From assembly GCF_024612015.1 (NCBI RefSeq), contig NZ_CP102512.1:4464001-4528000 (forward strand): 64,000 nucleotides of DNA. The letters run 5' to 3'. Positions 1 to 32,703 of this stretch are shown here, piece by piece. How positions within the stretch are numbered: the stretch's first letter is position 1; each line of letters opens with the position of its first letter. The DNA is from Streptomyces sp. CA-210063 (GTDB lineage Bacteria; Actinomycetota; Actinomycetes; Streptomycetales; Streptomycetaceae). The translations under genes and the position numbers were made by a program. The notes below the pieces were generated by a model. That model was not told where the DNA came from and made no database searches. It was given only the letters and a program-made list of their open reading frames with translations.

Positions 1-3000
1 GTGACGGCGGTGAGCAGTCGGGTGAAGCGCTCGGCGATGCGGGCGGCCGAGTCGCGGTCGAACAGGTCGGTGGCGAACTCCAGGAGCCCGTGCACCCCGC
101 CCTCGGGCCGTTCCGTGAGGAAGAACGACAGGTCGAACTTGGCGGCGGGCGACGCGACCGGCCGTACGCGCGCGGTGAGGCCCGGCAGGTCCACGGCGAG
201 GTCGAGAGCCGCCTGCTGGTCGGCGTTGTTGAAGTTCAGGCCGGTCTGGAACAGCGGGTGCCGGGCGGTGGAGCGCGCCGGGTTGACCACCTCCACGACC
301 CGCTCGAACGGCACGTCCTGGTTCGCGTAGGCGGCCAGGTCGGTGGCCCGCACCCGGCGCAGCACCTCGGTGAAGCCGGGGTCGCCGGTCAGGTCGGTGC
401 GCAGCACGAGGTTGTTGGCGAAGTAGCCGACCAGGGGCGTCAGGGCGTCGTCGGTGCGGTTGGCGACCGGTGAGCCGATCACGATGTCGTCGCCCGCGCC
501 GAGCCGGTGCAACAGGGTGGCCAGAGCGGCGTGCACGACCATGAAGACGGTCGTGTGGTGTTCGCGGGCGAGCCGGACCAGGGCCTCGTGGACCTCGGGC
601 TCGACCGTGAAGGGCACCGTGTCGCCGCGGTGGGTGGGCACGGCGGGCCGGGGCCGGTCGAAGGGCAGCTCCATCTGCTCGGGCAGCCCGGTGAGCGTCG
701 TCCGCCAGTGGTCGAGCTGGCGGGAGAGGGAGCTGTCCGGGTCGTCGGCCTCGCCCAGCGCGCGCCGCTGCCACACCGCGAAGTCGGCGTACTGGACCGG
801 GAGTCGAGCCCAGTCGGGCTCCGCTCCCCGGGCCCGGGCCGCGTACGCGGTGGCGAGGTCGCGGGCGAGCGGGGCCATGGAGGCGCCGTCGCCGGCGATG
901 TGGTGCAGGACGAGGAGCAGCACGTGCTCGCCCGCTCCGAGGTCGAACAGCGTGGCGCGCAGCGGGGGTTGGGCGGAAAGATCGAACGGGGTGCGGACGG
1001 CGTCGGCGAGCCGCTCGTCGAGCACGTCCTCGTCGGCGCGGACGACGGTCAGCGGCGGCACGGCCGGCAGGACCACCTGGTGGGGGCCGTGCCCGTCCTC
1101 GGCGAAGACCGTACGCAGTGCCTCGTGCCGCCGCGCCAGGTCGTCCAGGGCCGCGGTGAGGGCAGCCACGTCGAGGTCACCGGTCAGCCGCAGCGCGACG
1201 GGCAGGTTGTACGTCGGGGAGGGGCCCTCGAAGCGGTGCAGGAACCACAGCCGTTCCTGGGCGTACGACAGCGGCAGGCGCCCGTCGCGCGGCTGTGCGG
1301 TGACGCCGCCGCGGCGCGGTCCGCTCCCGGCGAGCCGGGACGCGAGCTTCGCCACGGTCGTCGCCTCGAACAGCACCGACAGTTCGAGGTCGACGTCCAG
1401 CGCGGCCCGGATGCGGCCGGCCAGCCGGGTCACCAGCAGGGAGTGGCCACCGAGCGCGAAGAAGTCGTCGTCGATCGAGACCTCGCCCACATCGAGCACC
1501 TCGGCGAACAGCCCGCACAGGATCTCCTCCTGCGGGGTGCGCGGCCCGCGCCCGGAGGCGTGGGTCTGCTCCGGCACGGGCAAGGCCTTGCGGTCGAGCT
1601 TGCCGTTCGGGGTGAGCGGCAGGGTGTCCAGCTCGACGATCTGGGCCGGGACCATGTACTCCGGCAGCCGTGCCGTGAGCCGGTCGCGCAGCTCCTCGGC
1701 GTCGACCGGGACGCCTTGGGCTACGGGCACGACGTATCCGACGAGCCACTGCCCGTGCACGGCCGCGGCGGCCCGGGCGACGGCCGGGTGGTCGGCGAGC
1801 GCGTCCTCTATCTCGCCGAGTTCGACGCGGAAGCCGCGCAGCTTGACCTGGTTGTCGGCGCGCCCGAGGTACTCCAGCTCGCCGTCCGCTGTCCAGCGCG
1901 CCACGTCCCCGGTGCGGTACATCCGCGCCCCGGGCGGCCCGTACGGGCTCGCGACGAACCGCTCGGCGGTCAGGGCGGGCCGGTCCAGGTAGCCGCGGGC
2001 CAGTTGGACGCCCTCGACGTACAGCTCCCCGGGTGCCCCGGGGGCGACCGGCGCCAGCGTCGCGTCGAGCACATAGGCGCGGGTGTTGGCGACGGGCCCG
2101 CCGATCAGCACGGTCTCGGTGTCGGGCGGCGCGGCCCAGGCGGTGACGTCGACGGCGGCCTCGGTGGGGCCGTAGGCGTTGAGGAGCACGGCGGCCTCGT
2201 CCTCCGCGTACTCGTGGAATCGGCGGACCAGCTCGGCGGGCAGGGCCTCGTCGCCGGAGACGACCAGGCGGACGGAGTCCGGCAGCCGGGTCTCGGCCAG
2301 ATAGGCGCCGAGCATGGACGCGCTGAGGTGCACGACCGCGACGGACTCCTCGCGCATCAGCCGCTCCAGGTGGAGCGGGTCGCGGTGAGCGTCGGGGCGG
2401 GCCACGACGAGGGTGCCGCCGTACATGAGGGTCCAGAAGACCTCCCACACCGACACGTCGAAACTCACCGGAGTGGACTGCAGCACCCGTTCTCCGGGGG
2501 AGAGCCGGTGGTCGCGCTGCATCCACCACAGCCGGTTCGCCATGCCCGCGTACGTGGTGACCGTGCCTTTGGGGCGGCCGGTGGAGCCCGAGGTGTAGAT
2601 GACGTACGCGGCGTTGTCGCCGTGGGCCGTCACCCCCGGGTTCTCCGTGGGGCCCTCGGCGTCGGGTGCGATCCGCTCGAAGCCGTCCACGTCCCGGTCG
2701 GAGATCAGCAGCCGGGCGCCGGAGTCGGCGAGGATGTACGCGATCCGGTCGGCCGGATAGCCGGTGTCGATCGGCACATACGCGGCACCCGCCTTGAGCA
2801 CCGCCCACAGGGCCACCATCAGGTCGACCGAGCGCGGCAGCATCACGGCGACCCGTGACTCGGGTCCGACGCCCCGCTCGCGCAGGGCGTGGGCGAGCCG
2901 GTTCACCCGGGCGTCGAACTCGCCGTACGTGACACGCTCGCCCTCGAACCGGACCGCCTCGGCGTCGGGGTTCCGGGCCGCGCGCGCCTCCAGCAGCTCG

Positions 3001-6000
3001 ACCGCGGAGCCCTCGCCGTCGAACGCCACCGCGGTGTCGTTCCAGCCCGTGAGCACGAGGGCGCGTTCGTCGGCGCCGAGCACGTCGACCTCGGACAGCC
3101 GCTGCCCGGCATCGGCGGTGACGCCCTCCAGGACGCGGACGAACCGGGCCGCGAAGCTCTCCGCCGTGCGGCGGTCGTACAGGTCGGTGGCGTACTCCAG
3201 GCGACACAGCAGCCCGCCGCCCTCGTGGACGTGGCAGTCGAAGTGCACGTCGAACTTGGCGGTGCCGCTGGTCACCGGGCCGGGGTCGGCGGTGACGCCG
3301 GGCAGCTCGAAGCGGGCCTCGGTGAGGTCCAGCCAGGCCAGCATCACCTGGAAGAAGGCGTGCCGGGAGCGGGAGCGCTCCGGGTTCAGCTCCTCCACAA
3401 GGCGTTCGAACGGGACACCTTGGTGGGCGTAGGCGGCGAGACCGGTCTCCCGGACGCGGGCCAGCAGGTCCTCGAAGCTCGGGTCGCCGGAGGTGTCCAT
3501 GCGGTAGACGAGGGTGTTGATGAACACGCCGACCACGTCGTCGAGCACCGAGTCGGGCCGGTCGGCGATCACACCGCCGAGGGGGATGTCCTCGCCCGCG
3601 CCGAGCCGGGTCAGCAGCAGCGACACGGCGGCCTGGAGGATCATGAACGGGGTGGTGCGGGTACGGCCGGCGAGGTCCAGCATCCGCTGGTACAGCTCCG
3701 GGTCGATGGGGAACTCCACGTGGTCACCGCGGTGGGTGGCGACCGCCGGGCGCGGTCGGTCGCCCGGGAAGGTGACCTCGGGCGGGAGCCCGTCGAGGTG
3801 CCGCTTCCAGTAGTCGATCTGGCGGGGCAGGTCCGCGGCGAGCGTCTCGCGCTGCCAGATGGCGAAGTCCGGGTACTGGACGGTCAGTTCGGGGAAACCG
3901 GGCGCCTCGCCGCCGGTCCGGGCGCGATAGGCGGAGGTGATGTCCTCGGCGATCGGGCGCAGCGAGGCGCCGTCCGCCGCGATGTGGTGCATGACCAGCA
4001 GCAGGATGTGCCGCTGGGGCCCGGTCTCGTACAGCGTCGCCCGCAGGGGCAGGTCGCGGGTCAGATCGAAGGCGCGCGCCGAGTCGGCGACGAGGTCGGG
4101 CTCCGCGTCCCGTACGAACTCCATGGTGAAGCGGGTGTCCGCGGGCAGGACGATCTGGTGGGGCCCCTCGGTGTCCTCCGGATACAGGGTGCGCAGCGCC
4201 TCGTGGCGGGCGACCAGGTCGGCGAACGCGGCACCGAGCGCGTCCGCGTCGAGGGCACCGTCGAGCCGGATCTGGATCGGGATGTTGTACGTCCCCGAGG
4301 CGCCCTGGAGCCGGTGCAGGAACCACATGCGTTCCTGGGCGAACGACAGCGGGACGCGGCCGGGACGCTCCTCCGCCGTGATGCGCTTGGCCTGCGGGGC
4401 GACCAGGGTCAGCCGTTCGGCGACGCCGGCGACGGTCGGGCCGGCGAAGACGTCCCGCAGGGACAGGTCGACGCCGAACTCGTCGCGCACCCGGTGGACC
4501 AGCCGGATCATCAGGATCGAGGTGCCGCCGAGTGCGAAGAACTCGTCGTGGACGCCGACCTGTTCGACACCGAGGACGTCGGCGACGATGGCGCACAGCG
4601 TCCGCTCCTCGGGCGAGCGGGGTTCGGAGGGGGGTTCACCGCCCTTGACGGTGGGGGCGGTCCTCGCGGGAGCGTCGGCCGCCTGGACGCCGGTGACCAG
4701 CAGCCGGTCCTCTTCGCTCACCGCGGTCAGCTCGCCGGCCGGGACGTCGAGTCCGGCCGCCGCGCGGCCCATCAGGTCGGCCAGCAGACCGGCGATCCGC
4801 GTGATCGCCGACGCGTCGAACGCACCGGTGAGGTGGGACAGTCGCAGCCGCAGCCGCTCTTCGGGGAAGACGGAGAGGCTGATCGGGTAGTGCGTGCGCT
4901 CGACGAGTCGGGCGTGGGCGAGGCGCAGTCCGCCGGCCTCGATGCCGTCGTCCATCGGGTAGTTCTCGAAGGCGACGACGGTGTCGAACAGGGCGTCGAA
5001 GCCGGACGAGCGGGTCATCTCCGCCAGTGACGCCTGCTGATGGGCGTCGAGCGAGCGCTGCTCGTGCTGGAGCCGGGCCAGCAGCGCCGCCAGCGGCTCG
5101 TCCCGGTCGATCCGCACCCGGACCGGCAGGGTGTTGACGAACATGCCGACCATCGACTCCGCGCCGGGCAGCTCGGGCGGACGCCCGGCCGCGGTCGCGC
5201 CGAACACGACGTCGTCCCGTCCCGTGAAGGCACCGAGCAGCAGGCCCCACAGGCCCTGCACCACGGTGTTCAGGGTGAGCCGGTGCGCACGGGCCGTCGC
5301 CGCGAGGGTGTCGGTCAGCGCCTCGGACAGGACGAGCTCGTGGACGTCGTGCCCGTCCGAGGTGCGGTCGGCGGGGGCGAGCAGGGTGGGTGCGGCCAGA
5401 CCGGCGAGGTGGTCGCGCCACGCCTCGGCCGCGGCCTCGTGGTCCTGACCGTCGAGCCAGGCCAGGTAGTCGCGGTACGGGGCGGCCGGGGGCAGTTCGG
5501 TGCCGCCGTACAGCGTGCACAGATCGCGTACCAGCAGCGGCAGGGACCAGCCGTCCAGCAGCAGGTGGTGGTGGGTCAGCACCAGGCGGTCGCCGAGCGC
5601 GGTGAACCGCAGCAGGGGCGGCCGGACGACGCTGAAGCCGCGGGCGCGGTCACGGGCGAGGAACGCCTCCAGGTCGTCCTCGTCGCGCTCCTCCCAGGGC
5701 ACCTTGACGTCGGCGGGGACGACCTGGACGGGGGCGCCCGCCGAGCGGCTGCGGAAGGCGGCGCGCAGGTTCGGGTGGCGGTGCAGGAGGGCGGTGGCGG
5801 CGGCCCGCATCCGGTCAGGGTCGAAGCCGCCGTCGAATTCCAGGACGAGCTGGCCGACGTACGGGTCGTCGGGCTCGTACAGCGCGAGGAAGAGCAGGCC
5901 CTCCTGGAGCGGGGAGAGCGGCAGGACGTCCGTGGCGCCGCGGAACCTGTCCAGTTCCTCCTGGGTGATCCGGACGAGGGGTACGTCGGAGACGGTGAGT

Positions 6001-9000
6001 CCGCCTCGCGTGTGCGCGGCCAGTTCGGCCAGGGCTCCCGTCCACGCCTCGGCGAGGGCGCGTACGTCGGTCTCCGTGAGGACGCCCGGGGGGTAGGTCC
6101 ACTCGGCGGTCAGCTCGCCGTCCCGGACGTGGGCGTCGATCTGGAGGGCGTGGGTGAGCGCCAGGCCGTCGTCGGCGAGGAGTTCCACGGCCGTCGCGCC
6201 GTCGGCGAGGTGCCAGCCGCCGAGGTCGTGGGCGTCCAGGCGGCCCAGGTAGTTGAAGGAGATCTGCGGTGCCGGCAGTCCGGTGAGCCGGTCGCGCAGC
6301 AGGTCGTGGCCGCGACCGCCGTGCGGGATCGCGCGCAGCTCCTCCTTGGTGCGCTTGATCAGGTGGGCGCCGGTCTCGGTGCCGGGGCCCAGGCGCACCG
6401 GGTGGATGCGGGTGAACCAGCCGACGGTGGTGGACAGGTCCATCCCGTCGGGCAGGTGGTCGCGGCCGTGGCCCTCCAGGTCGACCAGGACCGGTCCTTC
6501 GCCCCGGTGGCGCTGTACGGCCGCCGAGAGCGCGGCGAGCAGGATGTCGTCCGGGGTCGCCCGGTAGGCGGTGGGGAGGGTCGTCAGCAGGGTGGCGGTG
6601 AGGTCGGCCGGGACGGTGACGGTGACCGAGCGGGCCGTGCCGTGGCAGTCTCGGGCCGGGTCGAGGGACCGGGTGCCGAGCACGGGTTCCGGGGTGGACA
6701 ACAGGTCCGTCCACAGCGGGAGTTCGTCGACGGGGGCACGTAGGTGTCCGGCCCACCGGCGCAACGAGGCCCCGGGCGGGGACAGCTCGGCGCCCGCGAG
6801 CGCCTCGGCGAGGTCGCTCAGCAGAATGCGCCAGGACACACCGTCGACGACCAGGTGGTGGAGAACGAGCAGCAGTCGGCCGGACTCGAACCACACCGCC
6901 CGCACCATCACACCGTCGTCCGGCGACAGCGCGCGGCGCGCGGCCTCCTTCTGTCCGGCCACGTCCTCGTCCCGGGCGCGCGTCAGGCAGTCCTCGGCCC
7001 GTACGGCGCCCACGGGCCGGATGTGCCGGCCGCGCATACGCAGCGCGGCGTGGTGGTCGAGCACCTTCTGCAGGGCGGCGGACAGCCGGTCGTACGACAG
7101 TTCCGGCGCGGCGGCGAGGAGGAGGGACTGGGCGAACCCGTCGACGGGACCGCCGCGTTCGGCGAGGCGCCGGGCCATGGGCGTCTCGGGGAGTGCGCCG
7201 ACCGGGTCGTCCTCGACGGACGGGGACGTCGGTGCCGTCGTGGCCACGAGGGCGAGCCGCGCGACCGTCGGGTGGTCGAAGACGTCCTGGGGAGTGAGGT
7301 GCCGGCCCTGGCGGCGGGCGCGGCTGACGAGCTGGATGGCGTGGATGCTGTCCGCGCCGAGGGCGAACAGGTCGTCGTCCACACCCAGTTCGGGGCGGCC
7401 GAGGAGTTCGGCGGCGAGGGTGTGCAGGAGGTGCTCGGTGGCGGTTCCGGGTGCGCGTCCGCTCTCCGGCCGGGCCGGGACGGGCAGGGCACGGCGGTCG
7501 GTCTTGCCGTTGGGGGTCACCGGGATCGACGGCAGGAGGAGCACGCTCACCGGCACCATGTGGGCGGGCAGCAGGGCCGCGAGGTGAGCCCGGGGGTCGG
7601 CCTGCGGCGTGCCGGTCACATAGCCGACGAGTTGCCGGGCTCCCGCGGCGGAGTCGTGGACGAGGACCACGGCCTGTTCGACGCCGGGCACCGACGCCAG
7701 CACGGCCTCGACCTCCGCGGGTTCGACCCGCTGTCCGTTGATCTTGATCTGGTCGTCGGCGCGTCCGACGAACTCCAGGTCGCCGCTCGCCCGGCGGCGC
7801 ACCAGGTCGCCGGTGCGGTACATGCGGGTGCCGGCCGGGCCGTGGGGGTCGGCGACGAAGCGCTCGGCGGTCGGGCCGGGGCGGTCGAAGTATCCGCGGG
7901 CGAGCTGGACGCCCGCCAGGTACAGCTCTCCGGTGACGCCGTCCGGCACCGGTCCCAGGGCCGGATCCAGCACGTAGGCACGCGAGTCGTGGGTGGGCGT
8001 GCCGATCGTGACGGGCTCGCCGGGCACGCAGGCGTGGGAGGTCGCGGTCACCGAGAACTCGGTGGGCCCGTAGGAGTTGTGCAGCCGGCCGCCGCACTCG
8101 CGGTGGAAGCGGTCGGCGAGCCCGGCGGGCAGTGCCTCGCCGCCGCAGCTGACCATGCGCAGGGCGTCCGTGGGCAGGTACGCGTACTCGTCGAGGAAGG
8201 GGCCGAGCATCGCGGGCACGAAGTGGATGACGGTCACGCGTTCGTCGCGGACCAGTCGGGCCAGGTAGGCCGGGTCGCGGTGGCCGTCGGGGCGGGCGAC
8301 GACGAGGGTCGCGCCACGGGTGAGGGTCCAGAACACCTCCCACACCGACACGTCGAACCCGACCGGCGTCTTGTGCACGACCCGGTCCGCCGGGGTGAGC
8401 CGGTACTCGTGCTGCATCCAGGCGAGCATGTGGGTGATGCCGGCGTGGGTGACGACGGTGCCCTTGGGGCGGCCGGTGGTGCCCGAGGTGTGGATGACGT
8501 ACGCGGCGTTGTCCCCTCGCGGGGCGACGCCGGGGTTCGTGTCGGGCTCGCCGTCGCCGAGGGAGCGCACGTTGTCCTCGTCGATCACGAACGCCACCCG
8601 GGAGTCGGCGAGGACGTAGGCGATCCGGTCGGCCGGGTAACCGGTCTCGACGGGCACGTACGCCGCACCGGTCTTCAGCACCGCCCACAGCGCGACGATC
8701 AGGTCGGGCGAGCGGGGCAACGCCACCGCCACCCGCGACTCCGGTCCCACGCCCCGCCCGCGCAGGGCGTGCGCGAGACGGTTGACACGGGCGTTGAGTT
8801 CGCCGTACGTCAGCCGCTCGCCCTCGAAAGCGACGGCCTCGGCGGCCGGGTCCTGGGCCTCGAACAGGTCCACCAGAGAGCGCGGGTCCGTCGGGTGGCC
8901 GGTGTCGTTGCGGGCGTGGAAGCGCTCCCGTTCCGCGTCGTCGAGCAGGTCGACGGCGCCGATGGGCAGGTCCGGCCGCTCGGTGACCGCGGTGAGCAGG

Positions 9001-10310
9001 CGCAGATAGCGGTCGCGGTGGGCGGCGGCGGTCTCGGGGGTGAAGCGGCCGGGGTGGGCGTTGACGGTCAGCTCGATGCCGTCGCCCGCCTCGGGGTCGC
9101 CGTACGCGTGCAGGGCGAGGTCGCGTACCGGGCCGGAGGCGAGCTGGTGCGCCTCGGCCTCGGTGGGGCCGAACGGCAGGCGGGCGGCGGCGAAGGAGAG
9201 GACGTTCACGGACGGACCGCTCAGGGTGCCCGGGTGGGCCGCGGCCGAGAGATCGCGGCGCAGGTCGTCGTGCGGGTACCGCTGGTGGCGGGTCGCCTCG
9301 GCCAGGCGGGCGGCGACCCGGTCCAGCAGTTCCGCGAAGGTGGTGGAGCCGTCGACGGGTATCCGCAGCGGGACGTCGTTGACGAGCATGGCGGGTGTCG
9401 CCAGGGCGTGCGGACTGAGCCGGGCGGCCATGAAGACGCGGACGAGGACGTCGTGGGCGCCGGTGACGCGGTGGGTGTGGGCCGCCATGGCGGCGATCAC
9501 CGGCAGGGACCAGCGGGACCCGGCGAGCCCGCGCACCCTGAGCGCGTCGGCCTCCGGCAGGCGGCCGGTCGCACCGGGCAGGCTGGGCGCGAGTCCGGTG
9601 GCGCCGGAGCCTGGGGCGAGAGTGCGTGCCAGGCGTCGGGCGGCAGGCGGGACTGTCACCGCACGCCCCAGTTCGGTGGACTCCGGCAGGTCGGCGAACG
9701 CGCGCCGCCAGTAGGCGCCGTCGCGCTCCCGGCGGGTGGAGCCGAGGTAGGCGTTCTCCTCGGCCAGGACCTCGCGCAGGGTGCCGAAGCCGCTCGCGGG
9801 CGGCTGCTCGCCCGCGGCGAGTGCCGTGTAGACCTCCAGCAGGCGGCGGCAGTGCAGGACCTGTCCGTAGCCGTCGAGGAGGATGTGGTGGTAGCGGAAG
9901 TGGAACCAGTGCCGGTCGGGGCCGAGCCGCAGCAGAGTGTGCCGGAACAACCGGTCGCCCGTGACCGGGACGGGTCGGGCCTGGTCGGCGTCGATCCAGG
10001 CGCGGGCGGCCCCGGCCGGATCGGCCTCGCCGCTGAGGTCGAGGTACTCCAGCCCGCCCGTGACGGACGGGTCGACCGTCTGCCGGACCGTCTCCCCGTC
10101 GTCGTGGAAGCGGACCCGCAGCGCCTCGGTCTCGGCCACCGCCCGCTCCACGGCACGGGCGAGCAGGGCGCGGTCCACCCGTCCGGGGACGTCGTAGTAG
10201 ATGCCGCACGTGTACTGGGGGCTGTCGGGGGCGAGGCGCTGGGCGACCCACACTCCGTGCTGGGCCGCCGTGAGCGGCAGGCCCGGGTTCGTCGATACGG
10301 CGTCGCTCAT
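1..10310 (-). CDS. Non-ribosomal peptide synthetase NRPS-1, C-A-T-E-C-T-C-A-T-C..., 3' end outside window
   Basis: The frame is open from an ATG at 10310 to the left edge (about 3,436 residues). Reading on the minus strand, I see C1 (HHILLDG near 9885), A1 ([11 protein letters not shown] near 8480), T1 (LGADSI near 7350), an epimerization domain (HHLVVDG near 6855), C2 (HHHLLLDG near 5565), T2 (LGGTS near 4530), C3 (HHIAADG near 3980), A2 ([11 protein letters not shown] near 2590), T3 (LGGHS near 1460) and C4 (HHIAGDG near 900), which runs off the edge. C1 at the extreme N-terminus, beside an ACP and FAAL, fits a lipoinitiating starter C domain. The E domain implies a D-configured first residue. 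Module 2 has no A domain: C2 passes into T2 through about 40 residues. I read pocket codes of roughly DVWHSGSVT for A1 and DVWHVGAVD for A2. Both share DVWH with Ser-type domains, but I cannot assign a substrate. The start lies 2 bp after the ACP stop. Confidence 0.95.
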
Positions 10311-10312
10311 GG

Positions 10313-10597
10313 TCAGGCCTGCTTCTCGCTCGTCCGTGCCGCCTCCGGCTGCCCGCCGACCAGTTCGGACAGGACCGTGCCCAGCGCGTCGACCGTGGGG
10401 TGGTCCCAGGTCAACGCGTCGTCGACGGTCACCTCGAACTCGTCCTCGATGTCGGCGGTGATGGCCAGCGCCGTCAGCGAGTCCAGGCCGTAGTCGGCCA
10501 GCGGTACGGACGTGTCGATGTCCTCGGGCGAACGGCGCAGGTAGGTCGCCACGCGCTCCGTCAGCCAGGTGTGCACGTCTCGGTTGCCAGCGGTCAT
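10313..10597 (-). CDS. Free-standing acyl carrier protein
   Basis: This 94-residue protein has the carrier-protein signature YGLDSLTAL. The Ser is the expected 4'-phosphopantetheine attachment site, in the middle of an acidic four-helix domain. It lies between two acyl-CoA dehydrogenases and the NRPS and shares their strand. The NRPS ATG follows 2 bp after its stop, so translation is probably coupled. By analogy with the FAAL/ACP pairs of lipopeptide clusters, it should receive an activated fatty acid from the FAAL encoded at 14175-15929 and pass it to the first C domain of NRPS-1. The 174-bp gap on its 5' side (10598-10771) has an AAAGAGA-like ribosome site close to the ATG. I see no gene there. 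Confidence 0.9.
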   Translation of the reverse strand: MTAGNRDVHTWLTERVATYLRRSPEDIDTSVPLADYGLDSLTALAITADIEDEFEVTVDDALTWDHPTVDALGTVLSELVGGQPEAARTSEKQA

Positions 10598-10771: not shown

Positions 10772-12481
10772 TCACACGGCGAGCGGTCTCCCGGTCAGGC
10801 CGAAGGAGCGACCGGTGTCCCGGCGGTCCAGGAGTTCGGCGAAGAGCCTGTCCTCGACCTCGGCGGGCAGCGGGCCCGGCCGGTGCGGACCCGGCGCCGA
10901 GCGGCACAGGGCCGCCCTCAGCCAGGTGGGGTCGGCCAGGAAGTCGTCCGGCCGGGCGTGCCGCCATACCTGCCCACAGGCGGTGCGGGACAGGAGGCGC
11001 ACGTACCGGGTGACCAGGTCGTAGTGTTCGGGGCGGGCGTCGACGCCGAGTTCCGCCGGCGACAACTGCCCGCATACGGCGGCCAGTTCGGCCAGTTCGA
11101 CGTGGTCGTCGCGGAGCGCCGCACGTACGTCGTCGTGCTCGGGTGCCCAGGACGCGTCGGCCAGGGCAGGGAGGGATCCCATGACGGGGTCGCGGCCCGC
11201 GGCGTGCAGGGCCAGCCGGTCGTACCGCAGGGGCGGCAGCGGTTCCGCGAGCGCGAACACGTCGGGCGGCGCCTCGGTGCCGGGGCGGGACCAGGTGCGG
11301 CGGGCCAGCAGGGGCAGCTGGGGCAGCAGGCTCATCTGGCAGGCGGCGCGCGCGATGTGCCCGAAGCCGACGGGGGCGAGGTCGCGCAGCAGCTTCTGGA
11401 ACAGTGCGGTCGGCCCTTCGCGCAGGTAGAAGTGGGCGCCCAGAAGTTCCGCGAGCCGGTCCATGGCCTCCAGCAGCAGACGGGACACCTCGAACTTGAC
11501 CGCGGAGGCGTACACGCTCGCCGCGCCGGGCACCAGGTGCAGCGCACGGGCGCCGACCGCGCCGAGCGCCTCGGCACGCAGCAGGTCGGCGAAGACGCCG
11601 GCCAGCACCGAGCGGACATGCGGGAGTGCGGTGGCCGGGCCGCCGTACAGCCGGCGCCGTGTCAGGTGGTCCACGGTGACGCGCAGTCCGGTGTCGAGGA
11701 TCCCGGTGGCCATCGTGGGCAGGACCGTGCGGGTGATCTGGAGGGCCTTCAGCGCGGTCTCCAGGCCGGAGCCGGCCGGACCGAGGACCGCGGAGGCGGG
11801 CACGGGCAGGTCGTCGAAACGCAGGCCGCCGAGCTGCACTCCCCGCATGCCGACGGTACCGAAGCGCGGCAGGTCGGTCAGGTGTGCGGGGTCGGCGCTC
11901 GCACGGTCGACGAGGATCAGGGAGTGGCTGCGCGGTCCGGGCCGGGTGTCGGTGCGGGCGAGGACGACCATGGCGTCGGCGCGCCCGATGTTGGTGACGA
12001 CCTCCTTGCGGCCGCTCAGGCGCAGTCCGTCGGGTGCGGCGGTGGCGGCGAACTCCGTGCCCGCCATGTCGTTGCCGTGGGCCAGTTCGTGGAAGGCGAT
12101 GGCGATACGCCGGCCGTCCAGGAGCAGGCGGGCGGCGTGCCCGGTCTGCTGTGCGTCGCCGGCGGTCCACAGGGTGACCGAGGCGATGAGCGAGCTGGCG
12201 CCGTAGCCGAGGCCGAGCGCGGGGTCACGTCGGTAGAGCGTGCGCATGACCTCGCACAGGTGGTCGGCCCGCTCCAGACGGCCGCCCAGCTGGGGTGGTA
12301 CGAACTCGGCGTTCAGCCCGTAGGCGTGCAGCAGCGCCTCTCCGGCGGCGAGCATCTCCGCGCGCTCGTCCGCGGCGAGAACGGCCTCGGTACCCGTGGG
12401 GTTGGCCGGGTTGGAGAGGCTGCCGAGCAGGTGCTCCAGTTCGTCGGCGCGCTTGGGTGCGAGGCCGGTCGTGGTGGTCAT
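10772..12481 (-). CDS. Acyl-CoA dehydrogenase family protein (1), 569 aa
   Basis: The protein has the acyl-CoA dehydrogenase layout: a helical N-terminal domain, a central beta domain with FHELAHGNDMAGTEF and LSGRKEVVTNIGRADAM resembling the FAD/substrate strand motifs, and a helical C-terminal domain. At 569 residues it is longer than the usual 380-400, with about 150 extra C-terminal residues. The ATG at 12481 overlaps the stop of the paralogue upstream (ATGA overlap, 12478-12481), which indicates translational coupling. In lipopeptide clusters such enzymes desaturate the fatty acyl group while it is bound to the ACP. That role here is inferred from the FAAL and ACP beside it. I did not identify a confident catalytic Glu. 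Confidence 0.85.
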   Translation of the reverse strand: MTTTTGLAPKRADELEHLLGSLSNPANPTGTEAVLAADERAEMLAAGEALLHAYGLNAEFVPPQLGGRLERADHLCEVMRTLYRRDPALGLGYGASSLIASVTLWTAGDAQQTGHAARLLLDGRRIAIAFHELAHGNDMAGTEFAATAAPDGLRLSGRKEVVTNIGRADAMVVLARTDTRPGPRSHSLILVDRASADPAHLTDLPRFGTVGMRGVQLGGLRFDDLPVPASAVLGPAGSGLETALKALQITRTVLPTMATGILDTGLRVTVDHLTRRRLYGGPATALPHVRSVLAGVFADLLRAEALGAVGARALHLVPGAASVYASAVKFEVSRLLLEAMDRLAELLGAHFYLREGPTALFQKLLRDLAPVGFGHIARAACQMSLLPQLPLLARRTWSRPGTEAPPDVFALAEPLPPLRYDRLALHAAGRDPVMGSLPALADASWAPEHDDVRAALRDDHVELAELAAVCGQLSPAELGVDARPEHYDLVTRYVRLLSRTACGQVWRHARPDDFLADPTWLRAALCRSAPGPHRPGPLPAEVEDRLFAELLDRRDTGRSFGLTGRPLAV

Positions 12482-14178
12482 GCGGTGCCTCCCCACAGGG
12501 TGAACTCCGGTGTGGGCATGCCGAGTACGACGTCGGCCAGGGCGCCGAACACGTCGCTGTCGTCCTCGCCGAGCAGGGAGGTCAGGCAGGCCCGCAGCCA
12601 CAGACCGTCCGTACCGAGTCGTCCGGTGCGCAGCGGCGGGTTCTCCAGCCACAGCAGCAGGCAGGCGGCAGCGGCGTAGGCGCGTTCGTAGCGTTCGGCG
12701 AGGCCGAAGGCGGCGGTGGGCAGTCCACCCGTCGACGGCACGAAGTCCGCCGACTCCGTCTCCAGCCCGGCGAGTTCGGTGAGCAGCCGGGCGATGAGCG
12801 GGCCCGCCTGGGGTGGCCCTTGCTCCACCATGCGTGCCGCCGTGTCCGGCAGGGTCTGCACGGCGCTGCATCCCGTGACGGACAGCAGCGTCAGCCGGTC
12901 GCGGTCGAACAGGGGCAGGGGGGCGGTGAGGTCGGCGGCGGCCCGCAGGCCTTCGGTGTCGGCCCGGCGGCGGCTCAACTGACGGCCCAGGCGCGGCATC
13001 TGGTGGAGGACGGCGGCGCGGTTGACGACCGTGCTGCCGTCGAAGATCGCGCAGATGCGGTGGTCGCGTTCCAGTTTGGCGAAGCCGCCGCCGGGCGGCG
13101 AGGTGAGGAAGCCGCGTACGCCCAGCAGTTCGCCGAGCGAGAGAAGCGTCTCCTGGGTCAGCGTCGGCACGTACGCCTTGGTGATCGCCGAGATCGCGCT
13201 CAGTTCCCCGGGCAGGGTGTGCACCGAGCGGGCGGAGAGCGCGCTCACCGCTTCGGCGGTCAGCGCCGCGGCGGCCGCCCGGCCGAGGATGCGCCGTACG
13301 TGCGGGACGTCCGCGAGGCGTCGGCCGTACAGCTCGCGTCCGGTGACGAAGTCGCGGGCCAACCGCAGGGCGTGGTCGGCGGCGCCGAGGGAGAGCGCCG
13401 TGCACGCGATGCGGGTGAGCTGGAGCGTTCTGAGGACCACGGCGATCCCGTCGCCCTCTTCGCCGACGAGGGCGTCGGCGGGCACCGGGGCGCCGTCGAG
13501 GGCGAAGCCGCTGATGTCGGCGCCGCGGATGCCGTGCGTACGGATTTTCGGCAGGTTCCGCCAGGCGCCCTCGGGCAGTCGGCGCTTGTCCACGAGGAAG
13601 AGGCTGAAGCCCCGTCCGCCGCCCGCCGGGTCGGTGCGGGCCAGGACGCAGGCGAGGGTGGAGCGGGTGGCGTTGTTGATGAGCCACTTCTCGCCGGTGA
13701 GCCGCCAGCCGCCACCCGCTGCGTCCGCGTCCGCGTCTGCCTCGGCGTCTGCCTCTGCATCCACACCCGCGCCGGTCTCGGCCACCGCCGCGAACTCGCT
13801 CGCGAGCAGGTCGGCGCCATGGTCACGCTCGGTCAGCCCCCAGCAGACGGCCTCGCCCCCGCGTACCCGCTCGGCGAGCCGGGCGGCCTGATCCGGGGTG
13901 CCGGCCACCCACACCGGGGCCGACCCGAGGAACGTCTTGCCGTGGGCGATGGCCACGGTCAGATCACGGCGGGCGACCTCGCGCAGCAGCCGTACCGTCT
14001 CGCTGAAGTCGCCGTCCGGGGACAGGACGTAGTGGGTGGGCATTCCCGCGTCGTCGAGGAGGCGGACCGCGCCGTCGGGGAACTCCTCACGGTCGTCGAG
14101 CTCGGCGAGCGCGTCGGGTGAGAAGGCGTCGCTCTCGTGGGCGGCGAGCAGGGTCTCCAGATCAGCCGTGGTGGTCAT
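12478..14178 (-). CDS. Acyl-CoA dehydrogenase family protein (2), 566 aa
   Basis: This is a paralogue of the next gene, with classical motifs: WGLTERDHGADL (flavin/substrate site), LTGEKWLINNATRS, and C-terminal ICAIFDGSTVVNRAAV, resembling the DGT-type FAD-binding motif of the family. Between the two beta-domain motifs, at residues of about 140-155, is a low-complexity stretch of alternating Ala with Asp/Glu, encoded by near-perfect 6-bp repeats at about 13718-13762. The start overlaps the FAAL stop by 4 bp (14175-14178) and the stop overlaps the next start by 4 bp, so FAAL and both dehydrogenases form a tightly coupled operon. It probably oxidises the ACP-bound acyl chain. Two different dehydrogenases suggest two desaturations, or a heterodimer in which only one subunit is active. 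Confidence 0.88.
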   Translation of the reverse strand: MTTTADLETLLAAHESDAFSPDALAELDDREEFPDGAVRLLDDAGMPTHYVLSPDGDFSETVRLLREVARRDLTVAIAHGKTFLGSAPVWVAGTPDQAARLAERVRGGEAVCWGLTERDHGADLLASEFAAVAETGAGVDAEADAEADADADAAGGGWRLTGEKWLINNATRSTLACVLARTDPAGGGRGFSLFLVDKRRLPEGAWRNLPKIRTHGIRGADISGFALDGAPVPADALVGEEGDGIAVVLRTLQLTRIACTALSLGAADHALRLARDFVTGRELYGRRLADVPHVRRILGRAAAAALTAEAVSALSARSVHTLPGELSAISAITKAYVPTLTQETLLSLGELLGVRGFLTSPPGGGFAKLERDHRICAIFDGSTVVNRAAVLHQMPRLGRQLSRRRADTEGLRAAADLTAPLPLFDRDRLTLLSVTGCSAVQTLPDTAARMVEQGPPQAGPLIARLLTELAGLETESADFVPSTGGLPTAAFGLAERYERAYAAAACLLLWLENPPLRTGRLGTDGLWLRACLTSLLGEDDSDVFGALADVVLGMPTPEFTLWGGTA

Positions 14179-15929
14179 CGTGCGGTCACCCGCCGGTGTT
14201 CCGCCAGGGCCAGGGTGAGCAACCGGTCCTCACCGAGGTACAGGGTGCCCAGTTCTCCGGCGAGGTAGAGGGCACGCATCGCCGAGCGCTGCACCTTCCC
14301 GCTCGTGGTCCGCCGGACGCCGCCGGGCCGCACCAGGGCGACCGCCGCGACCGGCACACCGAACTCCCGGGCCGCGGTCTGCTTCATGTCGACGGCGATC
14401 CGGCTCAGCCGCTCGGCACCCCAGTGGGCACGGATCTCGTGCACGACGACGATCGCCGGAGCGGTGTCCACGCCGTCGTCGTCCCCGACCATGAAGACGG
14501 CCCCGTGCAGTCCCTCCAACTCCTCGTGCTGGGAACGCAGTTCGTACTCGATGTCCGCGGGGTGCAGATTGCGCCCGTGCAGGACGAGGACGTCCTTGCG
14601 GCGGCCGGTGATGTAGAGGTCACCGTCGAGCAGGCCGCCGAGGTCGCCCGTGCGCAGGAACGGACCGCGTCCGTCCGTGGTGTTCGCCCGGAACGTGGTG
14701 TCGGTGGCGGCCTCGTTCTCCCAGTAACCCGCGGTGACGCAGGGGCCGCTGAGCCAGATCTCACCGATCCGGCCCTCGGGCAGGGCGTCCCCGGTGTCGG
14801 GATCGACGACCTGTACGTCTGAGCCGGTCGGCGCCCCGCATCCCACGAGCACGCGGGACGGTTCCGTGCCGTCGGCCTGCCGCAGCTCCAGGTTCTCCAG
14901 AGCCGAGGCGTCGACCGTGGTGCGCAGGGGCGCCCGCCCGGTGGTGGCGGAGGCCATCAGTGTCGCCTCGGCCAGGCCGTACACGGGGATGAGCGCGTCG
15001 GGCCGCAGTCCCGCGCGGGCGAACCTCTCGGTGAAGGCGGCGACCACGTCGGCGCGGACCGGTTCCGAGCCGTCGGCGGCCTTGACCCGGGACAGGTCGA
15101 GCGTGGCCAGCTGCTCGTCGGTGACGCGTCGGACGCACAGCTCGTAGCCGAAGTCGGGCGCGGCGGTGAATCCGACGTCACAGGCGTCCAGCATCCGCAG
15201 CCAGTGGTACGGGCGGCGCAGGAAGGACATGGGGTCCATCTGGACGTACCCGCTGCCGGACAGGAGGCCGGGCAGCATCAGGCCGATCAGCCCCATGTCG
15301 TGGTACAGGGGGATCCAGCCGCCGTACGTCGTGCCACTGTCGTTCCCGAACGCGGCCACCATCCGTTCGACGTTGGCGACCAGGTTGCCCTGGGTGACGA
15401 CGACGCCCTTGGGATCGCCGGTCGAACCCGACGTGTACTGGAGCAGCGCCGGCATCTCGGGCGCGACCCCGGGAGCGATCCAGGCATCCGGGTCTCCCTC
15501 ACCGGTGTCGGTCGGGTGGCAGACCACCCCGACGACGCCCTCCTCGGCCACCCACTTCTCCACGTCCGGGAGATCGCTCCGCTGGGTCAGGATGACACTC
15601 ACCCCCGCGTCGCGGGCGATGGCGGCGAGCCTGCGGCGCTCGTGCCGGTAGCGGCCCGGCAGCGGAGCGGGCACGGCGATGACGCCGGCGTAGACACAGG
15701 CGGAGAAGGCGGTGGTGAATTCGATTCCCGGGGAGTGGAGGAGCAGCGCTCGGTCCCCTGCGGAGAATCGCTCCTGGAGCCAGGAGGCAATGCGCCGGGA
15801 ATGCAGATCCAGTTCCGCGCGGTCGCGCACCTCGCATCTGATGTCACCGAATTCCGAGACGAAAGTCACGGCAGGCTGCTGCGGATTACGCGCTACCTGT
15901 TCCCTCAGTGTCGTGAGTAATTCTCGCAC
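14175..15929 (-). CDS. Fatty acyl-AMP ligase (FAAL)
   Basis: This ANL-superfamily enzyme of 584 residues has the P-loop YTSGSTGDPKGVV near residue 170, the FAAL-type WIPLYHDMGLIG motif, the VYGLAEATL adenylate-site motif and a C-terminal TGRRKDVLVLHGRNLHPAD segment. LYHDMGLIG and the overall similarity to FadD32-like proteins separate it from acyl-CoA ligases. FAALs make acyl-adenylates and transfer them to an ACP rather than to CoA. The start is a GTG at 15929 with only a weak ribosome site. Codon 4 is TTA (15918-15920), the rare leucine codon read by the bldA tRNA in Streptomyces. As first gene of the minus-strand operon, it could make lipid priming dependent on developmental stage. Confidence 0.92.
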   Translation of the reverse strand: MRELLTTLREQVARNPQQPAVTFVSEFGDIRCEVRDRAELDLHSRRIASWLQERFSAGDRALLLHSPGIEFTTAFSACVYAGVIAVPAPLPGRYRHERRRLAAIARDAGVSVILTQRSDLPDVEKWVAEEGVVGVVCHPTDTGEGDPDAWIAPGVAPEMPALLQYTSGSTGDPKGVVVTQGNLVANVERMVAAFGNDSGTTYGGWIPLYHDMGLIGLMLPGLLSGSGYVQMDPMSFLRRPYHWLRMLDACDVGFTAAPDFGYELCVRRVTDEQLATLDLSRVKAADGSEPVRADVVAAFTERFARAGLRPDALIPVYGLAEATLMASATTGRAPLRTTVDASALENLELRQADGTEPSRVLVGCGAPTGSDVQVVDPDTGDALPEGRIGEIWLSGPCVTAGYWENEAATDTTFRANTTDGRGPFLRTGDLGGLLDGDLYITGRRKDVLVLHGRNLHPADIEYELRSQHEELEGLHGAVFMVGDDDGVDTAPAIVVVHEIRAHWGAERLSRIAVDMKQTAAREFGVPVAAVALVRPGGVRRTTSGKVQRSAMRALYLAGELGTLYLGEDRLLTLALAEHRRVTAR

Positions 15930-16068: not shown

Positions 16069-17028
16069 GTGCCTACCCCCACCACGCCGGCCGTCGCCAT
16101 AGACGGCCTGCACAAGAAATTCCAGGAGAGCCATGCATTACGCGGTGTCGACCTGGAGGTGAAGCCAGGTGAGGTCATGGGCCTCCTGGGCCCGAATGGA
16201 GCCGGTAAAACCACTCTGGTAAAGATTTTGACGACGCTCCTCAAGCCGGACTCCGGGCGCACTTTCGTGAATGGCTGGGATGTGGCGACAGAACCAGAAA
16301 AAGTACGCTCCACCATCGGAATGGCCGGCCAGTACTCGACGGTCGACAGCTTGCTGACCGGCTTCGAGAACCTTTATCTGATCGCGAAACTGCGCGGCCT
16401 GGGCCGCCCCGCGGCCCGCCGCGTCGCCGACGACCTGCTGTCCCGGTTCCGGCTCACCGATGTCGCGGGGCGCCCTGCCGGCACCTACTCGGGCGGTATG
16501 CGCCGACGGCTGGATCTGGCCGCCGCCCTCGTCTGTGCCCCTCCCCTGGTCCTCCTGGACGAGCCCACCACCGGCCTCGACCCCGAGAGCAGGTTCGACA
16601 CGTGGGAGGCGGTCGGTGAACTGGTCGCCGGCGGCACCACGATCCTGCTGACGACCCAGTACCTGGAGGAGGCGGACCGTCTCGCCGACCGGATCACCGT
16701 GATCGACCGGGGGCGGGTGGTGGCGGAGGGCACCAGCGACGAACTGAAGGCAGCCGCCGGAAACCGGCTCGTCGTGTGTGTCGCCGAGGACCACCAACTC
16801 GACGCGGCGGCTCGTGCCGCCGCGCGGGCCACCGGTACGACACCGACGGTGGACCGCGCCGCCCGGCGCGTGGAGGCGCCCGCCGCCGACGGCCGTGCCG
16901 CACTGGGCCGCGCCCTCGCGGCGCTGGAGGGCGAGGAGATCGACGTACTGGAGATCGGGCTCAGCCGCTGCACGCTCGACGACGTGTTCCTCGGCCTGAC
17001 CAGCCGCACCCGGCGGGAGGCGGCGTGA
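16069..17028 (+). CDS. ABC transporter ATP-binding protein, DrrA-like
   Basis: This ATPase of 319 residues has Walker A GPNGAGKTT (about residue 45), signature YSGGMRRRL (about 143), Walker B LVLLDEPTTGLD (about 163) and a C-terminal extension ending in TLDDVFLGLTSR, typical of DrrA/daunorubicin-resistance type exporters. The start is GTG. Codon 24 is TTA (16138-16140), a likely bldA-dependent codon. The stop overlaps the ATG of the permease (TGATG at 17026-17030), so the two are translationally coupled. It probably energises export of, or self-resistance to, the lipopeptide. Substrate assignment rests on location only. Confidence 0.93.
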   Translation: MPTPTTPAVAIDGLHKKFQESHALRGVDLEVKPGEVMGLLGPNGAGKTTLVKILTTLLKPDSGRTFVNGWDVATEPEKVRSTIGMAGQYSTVDSLLTGFENLYLIAKLRGLGRPAARRVADDLLSRFRLTDVAGRPAGTYSGGMRRRLDLAAALVCAPPLVLLDEPTTGLDPESRFDTWEAVGELVAGGTTILLTTQYLEEADRLADRITVIDRGRVVAEGTSDELKAAAGNRLVVCVAEDHQLDAAARAAARATGTTPTVDRAARRVEAPAADGRAALGRALAALEGEEIDVLEIGLSRCTLDDVFLGLTSRTRREAA

Positions 17029-17924
17029 TGACCACGCCCACCGACGTCCGCAAGGCAGGCTCCCCGCACCGGGGCGCACCTGCCACCGGTCTCCCCTCGC
17101 CCGCGGTCCCGACCCGCGCCCGGCGCAATCCCGTGCTCCGTGTCGTCGCGGAGAGCGCGGACCTCGCCCTGCGCAACCTGCTGCACCTGCGGCGCACTCC
17201 GGGACTGCTCATCTCGTGCCTGGTCGAGCCGGTGGTGTACGCCCTGCTCATCGGGTACGTCTTCGGCAACAGCCTGGGCGGCACGGCCTACCGCTCGTAC
17301 ATGTTCGCCGGGCTGATCGCCCAGACGGGGGCCTTCACCACCACCTTCACCACGGTCGGGCTCTCGAGGGACCTGGACCAGGGCATGGTCGACCGCTTCC
17401 GCACCCTGCCGATCTCCCGGGTGGCCCTGCTGCTCGGCCGGACGACGTCCGACCTCACCACCTGCGTGGTGAGCGTCGCCGTCACCACCACGTGCGGTCT
17501 GCTGATGGGCTGGCGCCCGCACACCGGCCCCGTCGAGGTGGCCGCCGGGATCCTGCTGGTGCTCCTGTTCTCCTTCGCGATGTCGTGGATCGGCGTCTTC
17601 GTCGCCCTGGTCGCCCCGAACTCCCAGGTGGCAGGGAGCCTCGGGGTGATCTGGCTGTTCCCGGCGACGTTCATCTCCTCCGGGTTCGTCTCCGGAGCGA
17701 CCCTTCCCGGCCCGCTGTCCACCGTGGCCGCCTGGAACCCCATCACCTCGCTGGCGAACGCCCTGCGCCGGCTTTTCGGCAACCCGCCCCCGCCGGGCTT
17801 TCCCATACAGCACGCCTGGCCCGCCCATCACCCGGAGCTGTACACCGTGGGCTGCTCGGTGCTGCTCATCGCCGTCTTCACCTCCCTCTCGACATGGCGT
17901 TACCGCACGCGCACGAGCCGCTGA
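17028..17924 (+). CDS. ABC-2 type transporter permease, DrrB-like
   Basis: A 298-residue integral membrane protein with about six hydrophobic segments after a basic, Pro-rich N-terminal tail. It contains the ABC-2 family hallmark DLDQGMVDRFRTLPISRVALLLGR in the cytoplasmic loop and a late VFVALVAPNSQVAGSLG segment. It is the membrane partner of the ATPase encoded immediately upstream, with overlapping stop and start. In DrrAB-like pairs this protein forms a homodimeric export channel. About 100 bp separate it from the oxidoreductase gene, which has its own AGGAG site, so the operon probably continues. Confidence 0.92.
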   Translation: MTTPTDVRKAGSPHRGAPATGLPSPAVPTRARRNPVLRVVAESADLALRNLLHLRRTPGLLISCLVEPVVYALLIGYVFGNSLGGTAYRSYMFAGLIAQTGAFTTTFTTVGLSRDLDQGMVDRFRTLPISRVALLLGRTTSDLTTCVVSVAVTTTCGLLMGWRPHTGPVEVAAGILLVLLFSFAMSWIGVFVALVAPNSQVAGSLGVIWLFPATFISSGFVSGATLPGPLSTVAAWNPITSLANALRRLFGNPPPPGFPIQHAWPAHHPELYTVGCSVLLIAVFTSLSTWRYRTRTSR

Positions 17925-18022: not shown

Positions 18023-19174
18023 ATGACCGTCCCCACCCTGCGTCTCGGCCTCAACCTCGGCTACTGGGTCGGCGGCAACGACGCGTCCAACCTCCCGCTC
18101 GCCTCCCTGGCCGAGGATCTCGGCTACTCGGCGGTGTGGGTCTCGGAGGCCTACGGGTCCGACGCCGTCACCGTGCTGTCGTGGATCGCCGCCCGCACGT
18201 CCCGCATCGACGTCGGCAGCGCGGTCCTGCAGATCCCCGCCCGCTCGCCCGCCATGACGGCGATGACCGCCGCCACCCTCGACACGCTGTCCGGCGGACG
18301 GTTCAGGCTCGGCCTCGGCGTGTCCGGTCCTCAGGTCTCGGAGGGCTGGCACGGCGTCGGATTCGGCTCACCGCTGGGCCGTACCCGCGAATACGTCGAC
18401 CTGGTGCGCCGTGCGCTGCGCCGGGAACCCCTGGAGTACGAAGGCAGGCACTTCACGCTTCCGCTGCCGGGCGGCCCCGGCAAGGCGCTCACCCTGACCA
18501 TCCGGCCGCCGCGCGAGCGGATCCCGGTCTACCTCGCCGCCCTCGGCCCGAGGAACCTGGAACTGGCCGGGGAGATCGCCGACGGCTGGCTGCCGGTGTT
18601 CTTCTCACCCGCCCACGCCGCCAAGCAGCTCGAACCCCTGCGGGCCGGCCTCGCGAAGTCCGGGCGCGCCCTCGACGGGTTCGACATCGCCCCCTGCGTG
18701 CCCCTGGTGACCGGCGCCGACTGGCGGGCCTGTGCCCGGCGGGTACGGGGATATGCCGCGCTGTACCTCGGCGGCATGGGCGGCCGGGAGGACAACCACT
18801 ACACCCAGCTGGCCGAGCGCATGGGCTTCGGCCCCCAGGCCCGTGCCGTCCAGGACAGGTTCCTGGCCGGTGACTACCCGGGCGCCATGTCCGCCGTACC
18901 GCTCGACTTCCTCGACGCCACCTCGCTGCTCGGGCCGCGGGAGCGGATCGCCGAGCGGATGAGGGCGTTCGCCGAGGCCGGCGCCACCACGCTCAACCTC
19001 ATGCCGGTCGGCCCCGGGCTGCCCGGCCCGGACCGCGCCGCCGACGCGATGCGCACCGCCGCCGAGGCCGCGGAGCTCGCGGGCGTGCTCGCCTCCGGTC
19101 CCACCCCGCGCAATCCCCGCCCACGAGGCGCGCACGACTCGCAAGGAGACACCCGCACCCATGACCGCACCTGA
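18023..19174 (+). CDS. LLM-class flavin/F420-dependent oxidoreductase
   Basis: This 383-residue protein shows the luciferase-like monooxygenase TIM-barrel pattern: an N-terminal LGLNLGYWVGG strand, AEDLGYSAVWVSEAYGSDAV, the RIDVGSAVLQIPARSPAMTA strand, then FRLGLGVSGPQVSEGWHG, characteristic of bacterial LLM and F420-dependent families. The ATG at 18023 follows a good AGGAG. I chose it over upstream in-frame codons because similarity begins there. The family includes FMNH2/O2 monooxygenases and F420-dependent dehydrogenases, and the sequence alone does not tell me which this is. Lying between the transporter and the type II thioesterase, it is probably a tailoring enzyme for an amino acid or the lipid chain. 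The 3' end overlaps the next gene by 14 bp. Confidence 0.87.
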   Translation: MTVPTLRLGLNLGYWVGGNDASNLPLASLAEDLGYSAVWVSEAYGSDAVTVLSWIAARTSRIDVGSAVLQIPARSPAMTAMTAATLDTLSGGRFRLGLGVSGPQVSEGWHGVGFGSPLGRTREYVDLVRRALRREPLEYEGRHFTLPLPGGPGKALTLTIRPPRERIPVYLAALGPRNLELAGEIADGWLPVFFSPAHAAKQLEPLRAGLAKSGRALDGFDIAPCVPLVTGADWRACARRVRGYAALYLGGMGGREDNHYTQLAERMGFGPQARAVQDRFLAGDYPGAMSAVPLDFLDATSLLGPRERIAERMRAFAEAGATTLNLMPVGPGLPGPDRAADAMRTAAEAAELAGVLASGPTPRNPRPRGAHDSQGDTRTHDRT

Positions 19175-32309: not shown

Positions 32310-32703
32310 CGTGTCCCCTCATGGTTCTCGGCGTGACCTGCGAAAGGGCGTCCGCAAGAGGCCATTCCCCGGAAACTGTGGGTAATTCAGCGGCGATGGC
32401 TTTCCGTGACGCGCGTCGGCCCGCTTCGTGACTATCGTCACAACTGCCTGCGGTAGGTTGCGCGTTCCGGGCGTGCTCCGCTTTTTCGCCGTCCGGACCA
32501 CTCGATTTCCGCCGTCGCGCAGCGCGCCATTCACACTCCATTAATTTTCGGCGGATTCCCCAAACGGTTCCTACTTGCATGAGTAGTCCGCGCCTACCTG
32601 ACCCGGCAGTGGCTGGTGGTGACGGCATCTGCATACCGTGACTGCGCTTCCGCTTCCCCGAGAGCGATTGCCAGCCGGACGGAAATCGAAGAAAGGAACC
32701 GTT
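32310..32703 (+). promoter_or_regulatory. NRPS-2 leader with CTACT-N6-AGTAG palindrome at 32571-32586
   Basis: No gene is visible in these 394 bp. CTACTTGCATGAGTAG at 32571-32586 is a 16-bp motif whose CTACT/AGTAG arms are identical to the one at 24402-24417. It ends 117 bp before the chosen NRPS-2 start. AAAGGAA at 32692-32698 is the ribosome site. Because the upstream terminator isolates this region, NRPS-2 must have its own promoter here. The segment at 32520-32570 is relatively AT-rich (TTAATTTTCGG). I do not assign -35/-10 boxes. Confidence 0.6.

Follow-up and report, generated by a model that had tools for sequence, protein, structure and literature searches.

Module 2 of NRPS-1, an RthA homologue of Streptomyces sp. 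CA-210063, has no adenylation (A) domain of its own, and comparison with related clusters makes it very probable that this module is loaded in trans with a Thr-derived unit. The analysis concerns a stretch of 64,000 nucleotides (hereafter, the window), which corresponds to positions 4464001-4528000 of the 10.86-Mb one-contig genome (G000:C1). Positions are those of the window unless stated otherwise.

Architecture of NRPS-1 and its second module

Based on translation and profile annotation, NRPS-1 occupies positions 1-10310 on the minus strand and continues past the left edge of the window to genome position 4458234. When read from contiguous genome stretches, the gene starts with ATG at 10310 (N-terminus MSDAVSTNP) and encodes 5358 aa. 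Profile annotation of the whole protein gave the domain order C1-A1-T1-E1, C2-T2, C3-A3-T3, C4-A4-T4, C5-A5-T5-TE, with A domains in modules 1, 3, 4 and 5 and none in module 2.

In module 2, profile annotation placed the condensation domain C2 at 4746-5924 (minus strand, as for all NRPS-1 domains below), with an intact HHxxxDG motif (HHHLLLDG), and the carrier domain T2, the predicted threonyl acceptor, at 4410-4613, with its serine retained (LGGTS). They are joined by a linker of 44 residues (4614-4745; annotation and linker scan), which is the site of the missing A domain; any A-domain signal in this linker was no stronger than in shuffled sequence (score -1.6; 24 of 100 shuffles did at least as well). 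C2, the linker and T2 lie in one open frame, on which translation, whole-gene reading and profile annotation were concordant. An earlier sequence-only reading of this DNA, which had described module 2 as C-T with an intact frame and a linker leading from C2 to T2 without an A domain, is thus confirmed, and the motifs that it quoted are exact. Its span of 4460-5960 located the module correctly, but with its start at 4460 it misses the final 50 bases of T2.

The A-less module 2 is not an accident of sequencing or assembly, because it is common to other RthA orthologues, namely seven with five modules (G108, G091, L053, L055, L058, L059 and L069) and two with seven modules (L073 and L078); L079, with its decayed A domain, is an exception. 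In a small control on eight further NRPS regions from this genome, no A-less C-T modules were found, as against six C-A-T modules. Intact C and T domains in a module from which A is absent are what characterizes a trans-loaded C-T module, and module 2 has this composition.

The neighboring modules contain A1 (7476-8876) and the epimerization domain E1 (6000-7208; profile annotation) in module 1 and A3 (1572-3002) in module 3. Code reading gave DVWHSGSVT for A1 and DVWHVGAVD for A3, identical to the codes of modules 1 and 3 in S. scabiei, whose substrates are citrulline and Dab, respectively (PMC8552735). It was considered whether T2 could be loaded in cis by A1 or A3, with the stand-alone A-T protein RthB serving another step, e.g., the addition of a second Thr onto Dab. 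A second role for RthB has been suggested, with the double use of A domains in viomycin and capreomycin cited (PMC8552735). However, neither the A1 nor the A3 code is Thr-type, while the product of the orthologous line, the S. scabiei rotihibin, contains Thr/allo-Thr (PMC8552735). Furthermore, Thr-type A-T cassettes are found together with A-less modules in differently organized assembly lines, and we regard cis loading as highly improbable.

Even less credible is the skipping of module 2, or its use for passing the chain on with no residue added. In WS9326A biosynthesis, C and T domains reportedly pass the chain on without elongating it, which would be a precedent. Against this, the catalytic residues of C2 and T2 are intact in NRPS-1, and L-allo-Thr has been assigned to module 2 of S. 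scabiei RthA (PMC8552735).

The rotihibin-type gene cluster

Judging by its gene content, the cluster is of the rotihibin type (rth), and the set and order of the genes rthB-rthN are as in S. scabiei (Table 1 of PMC8552735). On the minus strand, profile annotation revealed homologues of RthK (stand-alone acyl carrier protein, 10313-10597), RthI and RthJ (two acyl-CoA dehydrogenases, 10772-14178) and RthH (fatty acyl-AMP ligase, 14175-15830). The RthG/RthF homologues (16069-17924, plus strand) are an ABC transporter ATPase and permease (17133-17924), named by their order in Table 1 of PMC8552735; the called ATPase start at 16321 appears too late for the frame 16069-17028. The following genes are also on the plus strand and encode homologues of RthE (18023-19174; LLM-class F420-dependent oxidoreductase by profile annotation), RthD (19161-19871; type II thioesterase, TEII, by alignment), RthC (19935-20759; SDR with Ser155-Tyr168-Lys172, by profile score and alignment close to the mycofactocin-type family TIGR03971) and RthB (20824-23454). 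RthB is the isolated A-T protein that the sequence-only reading had indicated: profile annotation gave a degenerate C domain (20842-21669), a Thr-type A domain (21694-23175; code DFWSVGMVH at the nine positions read) and a T domain (23236-23436). The cluster therefore contains a stand-alone Thr-code A-T protein together with a TEII. To the earlier reading we add the predicted shuttle thioesterase, the SDR, the degenerate C domain and the rth identity.

Past the window edge (L001), there are genes for an MbtH-like protein (PF03621 in a Pfam scan), a TauD-family oxygenase and a class III aminotransferase, as in S. scabiei. The two clusters also share the stand-alone Thr A-T protein, TEII, SDR, F420 oxidoreductase and fatty-acid genes, as well as the five modules of RthA and its A-less module 2. 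The RthA proteins are 84.4% identical over 5157 aa. The four A codes read here at nine positions each (DVWHSGSVT, DVWHVGAVD, DLTKVGEIG and DMTKVGEVG) differ from those of S. scabiei only in the third, which is DLTKVGEVG there (I/V).

It should be noted that the core finding is already known, because PMC8552735 states that module 2 of RthA has no A domain and proposes its loading by RthB. In the same paper, Thr is the predicted substrate of RthB, and the substrate of module 2 is left blank for all RthA entries in Table 5; removal of rthB in S. scabiei abolished rotihibins, and simple complementation failed.

The C-terminus distinguishes the two RthA proteins: it is a thioesterase here (PF00975, 1.2e-30) in contrast to a reductase (PF07993) in S. 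scabiei. The thioesterase was located at L001:14234-15001 (genome 4458234 on). It is common to G108, whereas G091 has the PF07993 reductase, and thioesterase-like ends also occur in the seven-module relatives L073 and L078 and in the four-module L079. Since RthA ends in a thioesterase and not in a reductase, the product is not expected to be an asparaginol; release as an acid or a ring is predicted, and with it a relative of rotihibin that lacks the asparaginol end.

A second NRPS is present in the window at 32638-40023 on the plus strand (C-A-T-C-A-T-TE), with the codes DVWHFSLVD, which we take to be Ser-type, and DVQYLSQVV. Oxidoreductase-like genes are located downstream, and this NRPS seems to represent a separate cluster.

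Proposed pathway for loading of module 2

We suggest the following pathway. RthB would activate L-Thr, as its code indicates, and keep it on its own carrier. Then, the SDR would probably invert the bound Thr at C3, yielding L-allo-Thr, as has been proposed in print for homologues. TEII would transfer the aminoacyl group from the RthB carrier to T2; the related TEII LgnA has been shown biochemically to take Thr off an A-T protein and pass it to a C-T protein (PMC8748450), where RthD is placed in the LgnA clade. Finally, C2 would join the T2-bound unit to the residue epimerized by module 1. This proposal would explain the missing A domain by the off-line loading and modification of Thr on a dedicated carrier. 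Two points against it are that rotihibin C has two Thr-type residues for the single A-less module of RthA, and that complementation of the rthB mutant failed. As a whole, the off-line supply of Thr to a module working without its own A domain is put forward with considerable confidence; among its steps, the shuttle function of TEII is likely by analogy, and the inversion of C3 by the SDR is moderately favored.

The TEII-SDR-A-T cassette in related loci

Loci were fetched with an alignment of 15 N-terminal regions. From 440 candidate stretches, 90 relatives were obtained, the best 80 of the 90 were kept, and 79 named loci were examined. The genes for TEII, SDR and A-T stood in this fixed order on one strand in 74 of the 79 loci (from the best 80 of 90 relatives). 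The five incomplete loci are L070 and L129, which begin at a contig end, and L085, L090 and L096, which have no SDR. All 73 readable A domains, among the 79 loci examined from the best 80 of 90 relatives, had the code DFW[SN][VI]GMVH, which we take to be the Thr code; those of L065 (a fragment), L071, L097, L100, L109 and L117 were left out. In alignments of 75 rows (again from the best 80 of 90 relatives), Ser-Tyr-Lys of the SDR was kept in every row, the TEII nucleophile was Ser in 72, Cys in 2 and a gap in 1, and the TEII His and Asp were kept in 74.

The SDR of the window scored 293.2 bits against TIGR03971 (cut-off 300). Mycofactocin-type SDRs of this class retain bound NAD, and bound NAD fits an oxidation-reduction that would invert C3 of Thr. 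A mycofactocin partner for the SDR was rejected, with no maturase above the cut-off in this genome (best 40.6 bits vs. 265), which is consistent with an SDR recycling its own NAD.

It is possible, if rather unlikely, that the cassette supplies plain L-Thr and the SDR acts elsewhere, e.g., on the acyl tail. RthC was left unassigned in the rotihibin paper (PMC8552735), and the three A-T loci without an SDR manage with TEII and A-T. Nevertheless, of the 77 loci with upstream sequence (from the best 80 of 90 relatives), 74 place the SDR gene between those for TEII and A-T, and this arrangement spans several assembly-line layouts. L-allo-Thr is known from related products: in PMC9943842, globomycin and WS9326A contain L-allo-Thr, and the D-Thr of himastatin is explained by later epimerization of L-allo-Thr. 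The formation of allo-Thr by an SDR and an A-T protein is proposed there for GlobD/GlobE, HmtG/HmtF and WS21/WS22, and the bacterial origin of L-allo-threonine is called unresolved in this 2023 paper on globomycin. We prefer inversion of Thr by the SDR, and with one substrate code and a complete cassette in 74 of 79 loci (best 80 of 90 relatives), the origin of L-allo-threonine becomes directly testable.

In L085, L090 and L096, the A-T protein has the extension and the Thr code, and TEII is encoded on the opposite strand. The gene adjoining A-T in L085 and L096 is presumably an FkbM-like methyltransferase gene, and L096 has genes presumably resembling those for hydroxyphenylglycine supply, all named from the sequence. 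These A-T proteins may deliver a Thr-derived unit of another kind. The TEII-SDR-A-T cassette, with a diverged extension, was also observed in L086, an Acidobacteriaceae MAG whose record is named outside Actinobacteria. In addition, the genome of CA-210063 has a second cluster (G000:C1:10061493-10084391; L050, L051) in which a C-T-E module lacks an A domain and an A-T protein is separately encoded; this A-T protein has the extension and the same nine-position Thr code and is 64-66% identical to that of the window in the matched parts. Plasmid-borne copies were rejected, as the search gave three weak partial matches only.

N-terminal extension of the A-T protein

The A-T protein begins with an extension of about 280 residues, and from profile comparison we conclude that it is a shortened, dead condensation domain (20842-21669, plus strand), in which HHxxxDG is replaced by PRDRWDR. 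An alignment of 40 extensions matched a set of six C domains plus an E domain, all taken from the window, at 95.5% probability (hhalign, E 1.6e-8, 270 columns), with similarity to the condensation-domain superfamily across both lobes, versus 0.8% and 0.3% for control alignments of the SDR and A. A profile search of solved structures returned 18 rows up to E 10, all of them NRPS/condensation-type chains, with 8 below 0.01. The best was 4tx2 (E 3.4e-8), the X domain of teicoplanin Tcp12; most other matches were limited to the last ~60 residues of the extension, and 4znm matched the motif region. Of the 40 sequences, 20 matched Pfam Condensation (best E 3.9e-6) and 4 the next family; the extension of the window itself remained under the cut-off (E 0.041).

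An intact HHxxxDG was not found in the extension. The second catalytic His is replaced by Arg in 39 of the 40 extensions, the exception being L067, which keeps His; the first His is kept in 10 and Asp in 29. X domains of glycopeptide synthetases have the motif HRxxxDG/D; the His-to-Arg change is in common, and the remainder of the motif agrees only partly. X domains sit in the terminal module and recruit P450s, whereas the extension here is shortened and N-terminal to A-T.

According to the review PMC8949500, the corresponding extension, 300 residues long in the proteins of enduracidin and ramoplanin, lacks substantial homology to any known sequence and, in ramoplanin, is needed for trans-complementation. 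No statement that the extension is a degenerate C domain was found in the open-access literature searched. Its identification as such gives a reason to test its role; a recruitment or docking function is conceivable, and we advance it with less than even confidence.

Association of the cassette with A-less modules

To follow the association, 33 loci were extended, and for L058, L059, L066 and L069 a longer stretch of the corresponding genome was used instead. Of the 79 loci (from the best 80 of 90 relatives), 50 had an A-less C-T module nearby, as did all five clusters from G genomes, including that of the window. The gap between C and T was 33-54 residues in 49 of 55 A-less modules. No conserved motif was seen by eye in these linkers; a docking motif was rejected, as the linkers vary freely between families, and they look like flexible tethers.

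No A-less C-T module was seen in 29 of the 79 loci (best 80 of 90 relatives), of which 12 were read over <28 kb (L052, L054, L056, L057, L065, L068, L070, L085, L087, L098, L114 and L129) and 17 over 32-61 kb (L079, L082, L084, L086, L090, L093, L096, L097, L108, L109, L111, L115, L120, L122, L126, L127 and L128). For L052, the matching 27-kb stretch of G175 had no RthA either. Within the 32-61 kb group, the A domain of L079 is decayed, and the reading frames are interrupted in L097 and L109. According to PMC9943842, the globomycin cluster has the cassette though every module has an A domain. Because of these 29 loci and globomycin, the association of the cassette with an A-less module, although strong, is neither strict nor absolute.

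Loss of the A domain

In the tree, the A-less C domains formed several clades, about one per cluster family, and not a single clade; a single origin was therefore not supported. The C-domain tree required 7 changes of state versus a shuffled mean of 42 and minimum of 35 (200 shuffles, relatedness ignored), and the T-domain tree likewise 13 versus 113. Since the shuffles ignore relatedness, this statistic indicates inheritance within families and no more. The several clades indicate that loss or adoption took place more than once, or that acceptor modules were exchanged.

A decayed A domain was found in Streptomyces violaceorubidus NRRL B-16381 (L079). A stretch of ~340 residues matches the A profile (E 4e-68) without profile positions about 237-301 and 392-493, and it precedes a T domain that groups with the A-less T2s in the T-domain tree. 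The first module of this NRPS (minus strand) is C-decayed A-T, with several core motifs absent from the relic, and T-E of module 1 and C2 seem to have been lost by fusion. Weak scars of an A domain were seen in the linkers of L089, L092, L101 and L118 (111-133 residues, profile about 306-347), for which 2, 0, 0 and 0 of 100 shuffles were as good. The scores, at 2.6-7.5 bits, are low, and the four loci belong to a single clade. In addition, none of 100 shuffles was as good as the linker of L124 (score 1.5), which matched a different part of the profile; one such case is about chance level in 55 linkers. Consequently, the scars rest on agreement of place.

As a speculative extension of the pathway, the dead X-like C domain might gather the SDR and TEII (or the acceptor C-T) around the carrier, so that Thr would be inverted and handed over in one complex. 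The A-less module would then be the end of a portable allo-threonine cassette, taken up by several assembly lines, with subsequent decay of the A domains that they had. We consider this combined picture doubtful.

Comparison with known systems

The sequence-only reading had proposed loading by the isolated A-T protein, with SyrE as the parallel. It is supported in kind, by our comparison and in print for RthA/RthB, but SyrE was rejected as the nearest relative: the closest ones are RthA/RthB of rotihibin, EndB/EndD of enduracidin and WS19/WS22 of WS9326A, rather than SyrE/SyrB1. In PMC8949500, syringomycin SyrE/SyrB1/SyrC is alike in having a module that lacks A and receives a Thr unit in trans, and it differs in the chlorination by SyrB2, the shuttle SyrC and the position of the module as the last of the line.

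Enduracidin (EndB module 8, EndD and the TEII End_25645; PMC13320435) and ramoplanin (PMC8949500) also have an A-less module and a TEII, and their A-T proteins have an N-terminal extension of ~300 residues. Enduracidin differs in its 17-module assembly line, and deletion of endD abolished its production (PMC13320435). WS9326A (WS19/WS20/WS21/WS22) and legonindolizidine (LgnA/LgnB/LgnD) share the C-T module, the Thr A-T protein and the TEII shuttle, and an SDR is present in WS9326A as here; they differ in that the C-T belongs to a C-T-C-A-T protein, which is used iteratively in WS9326A (PMC8748450 and PMC9943842). With respect to these systems, the present work contributes the survey of the cassette, the identification of the extension, the series of decaying A domains and the exchange of the release domain; the remainder is largely known for the family.
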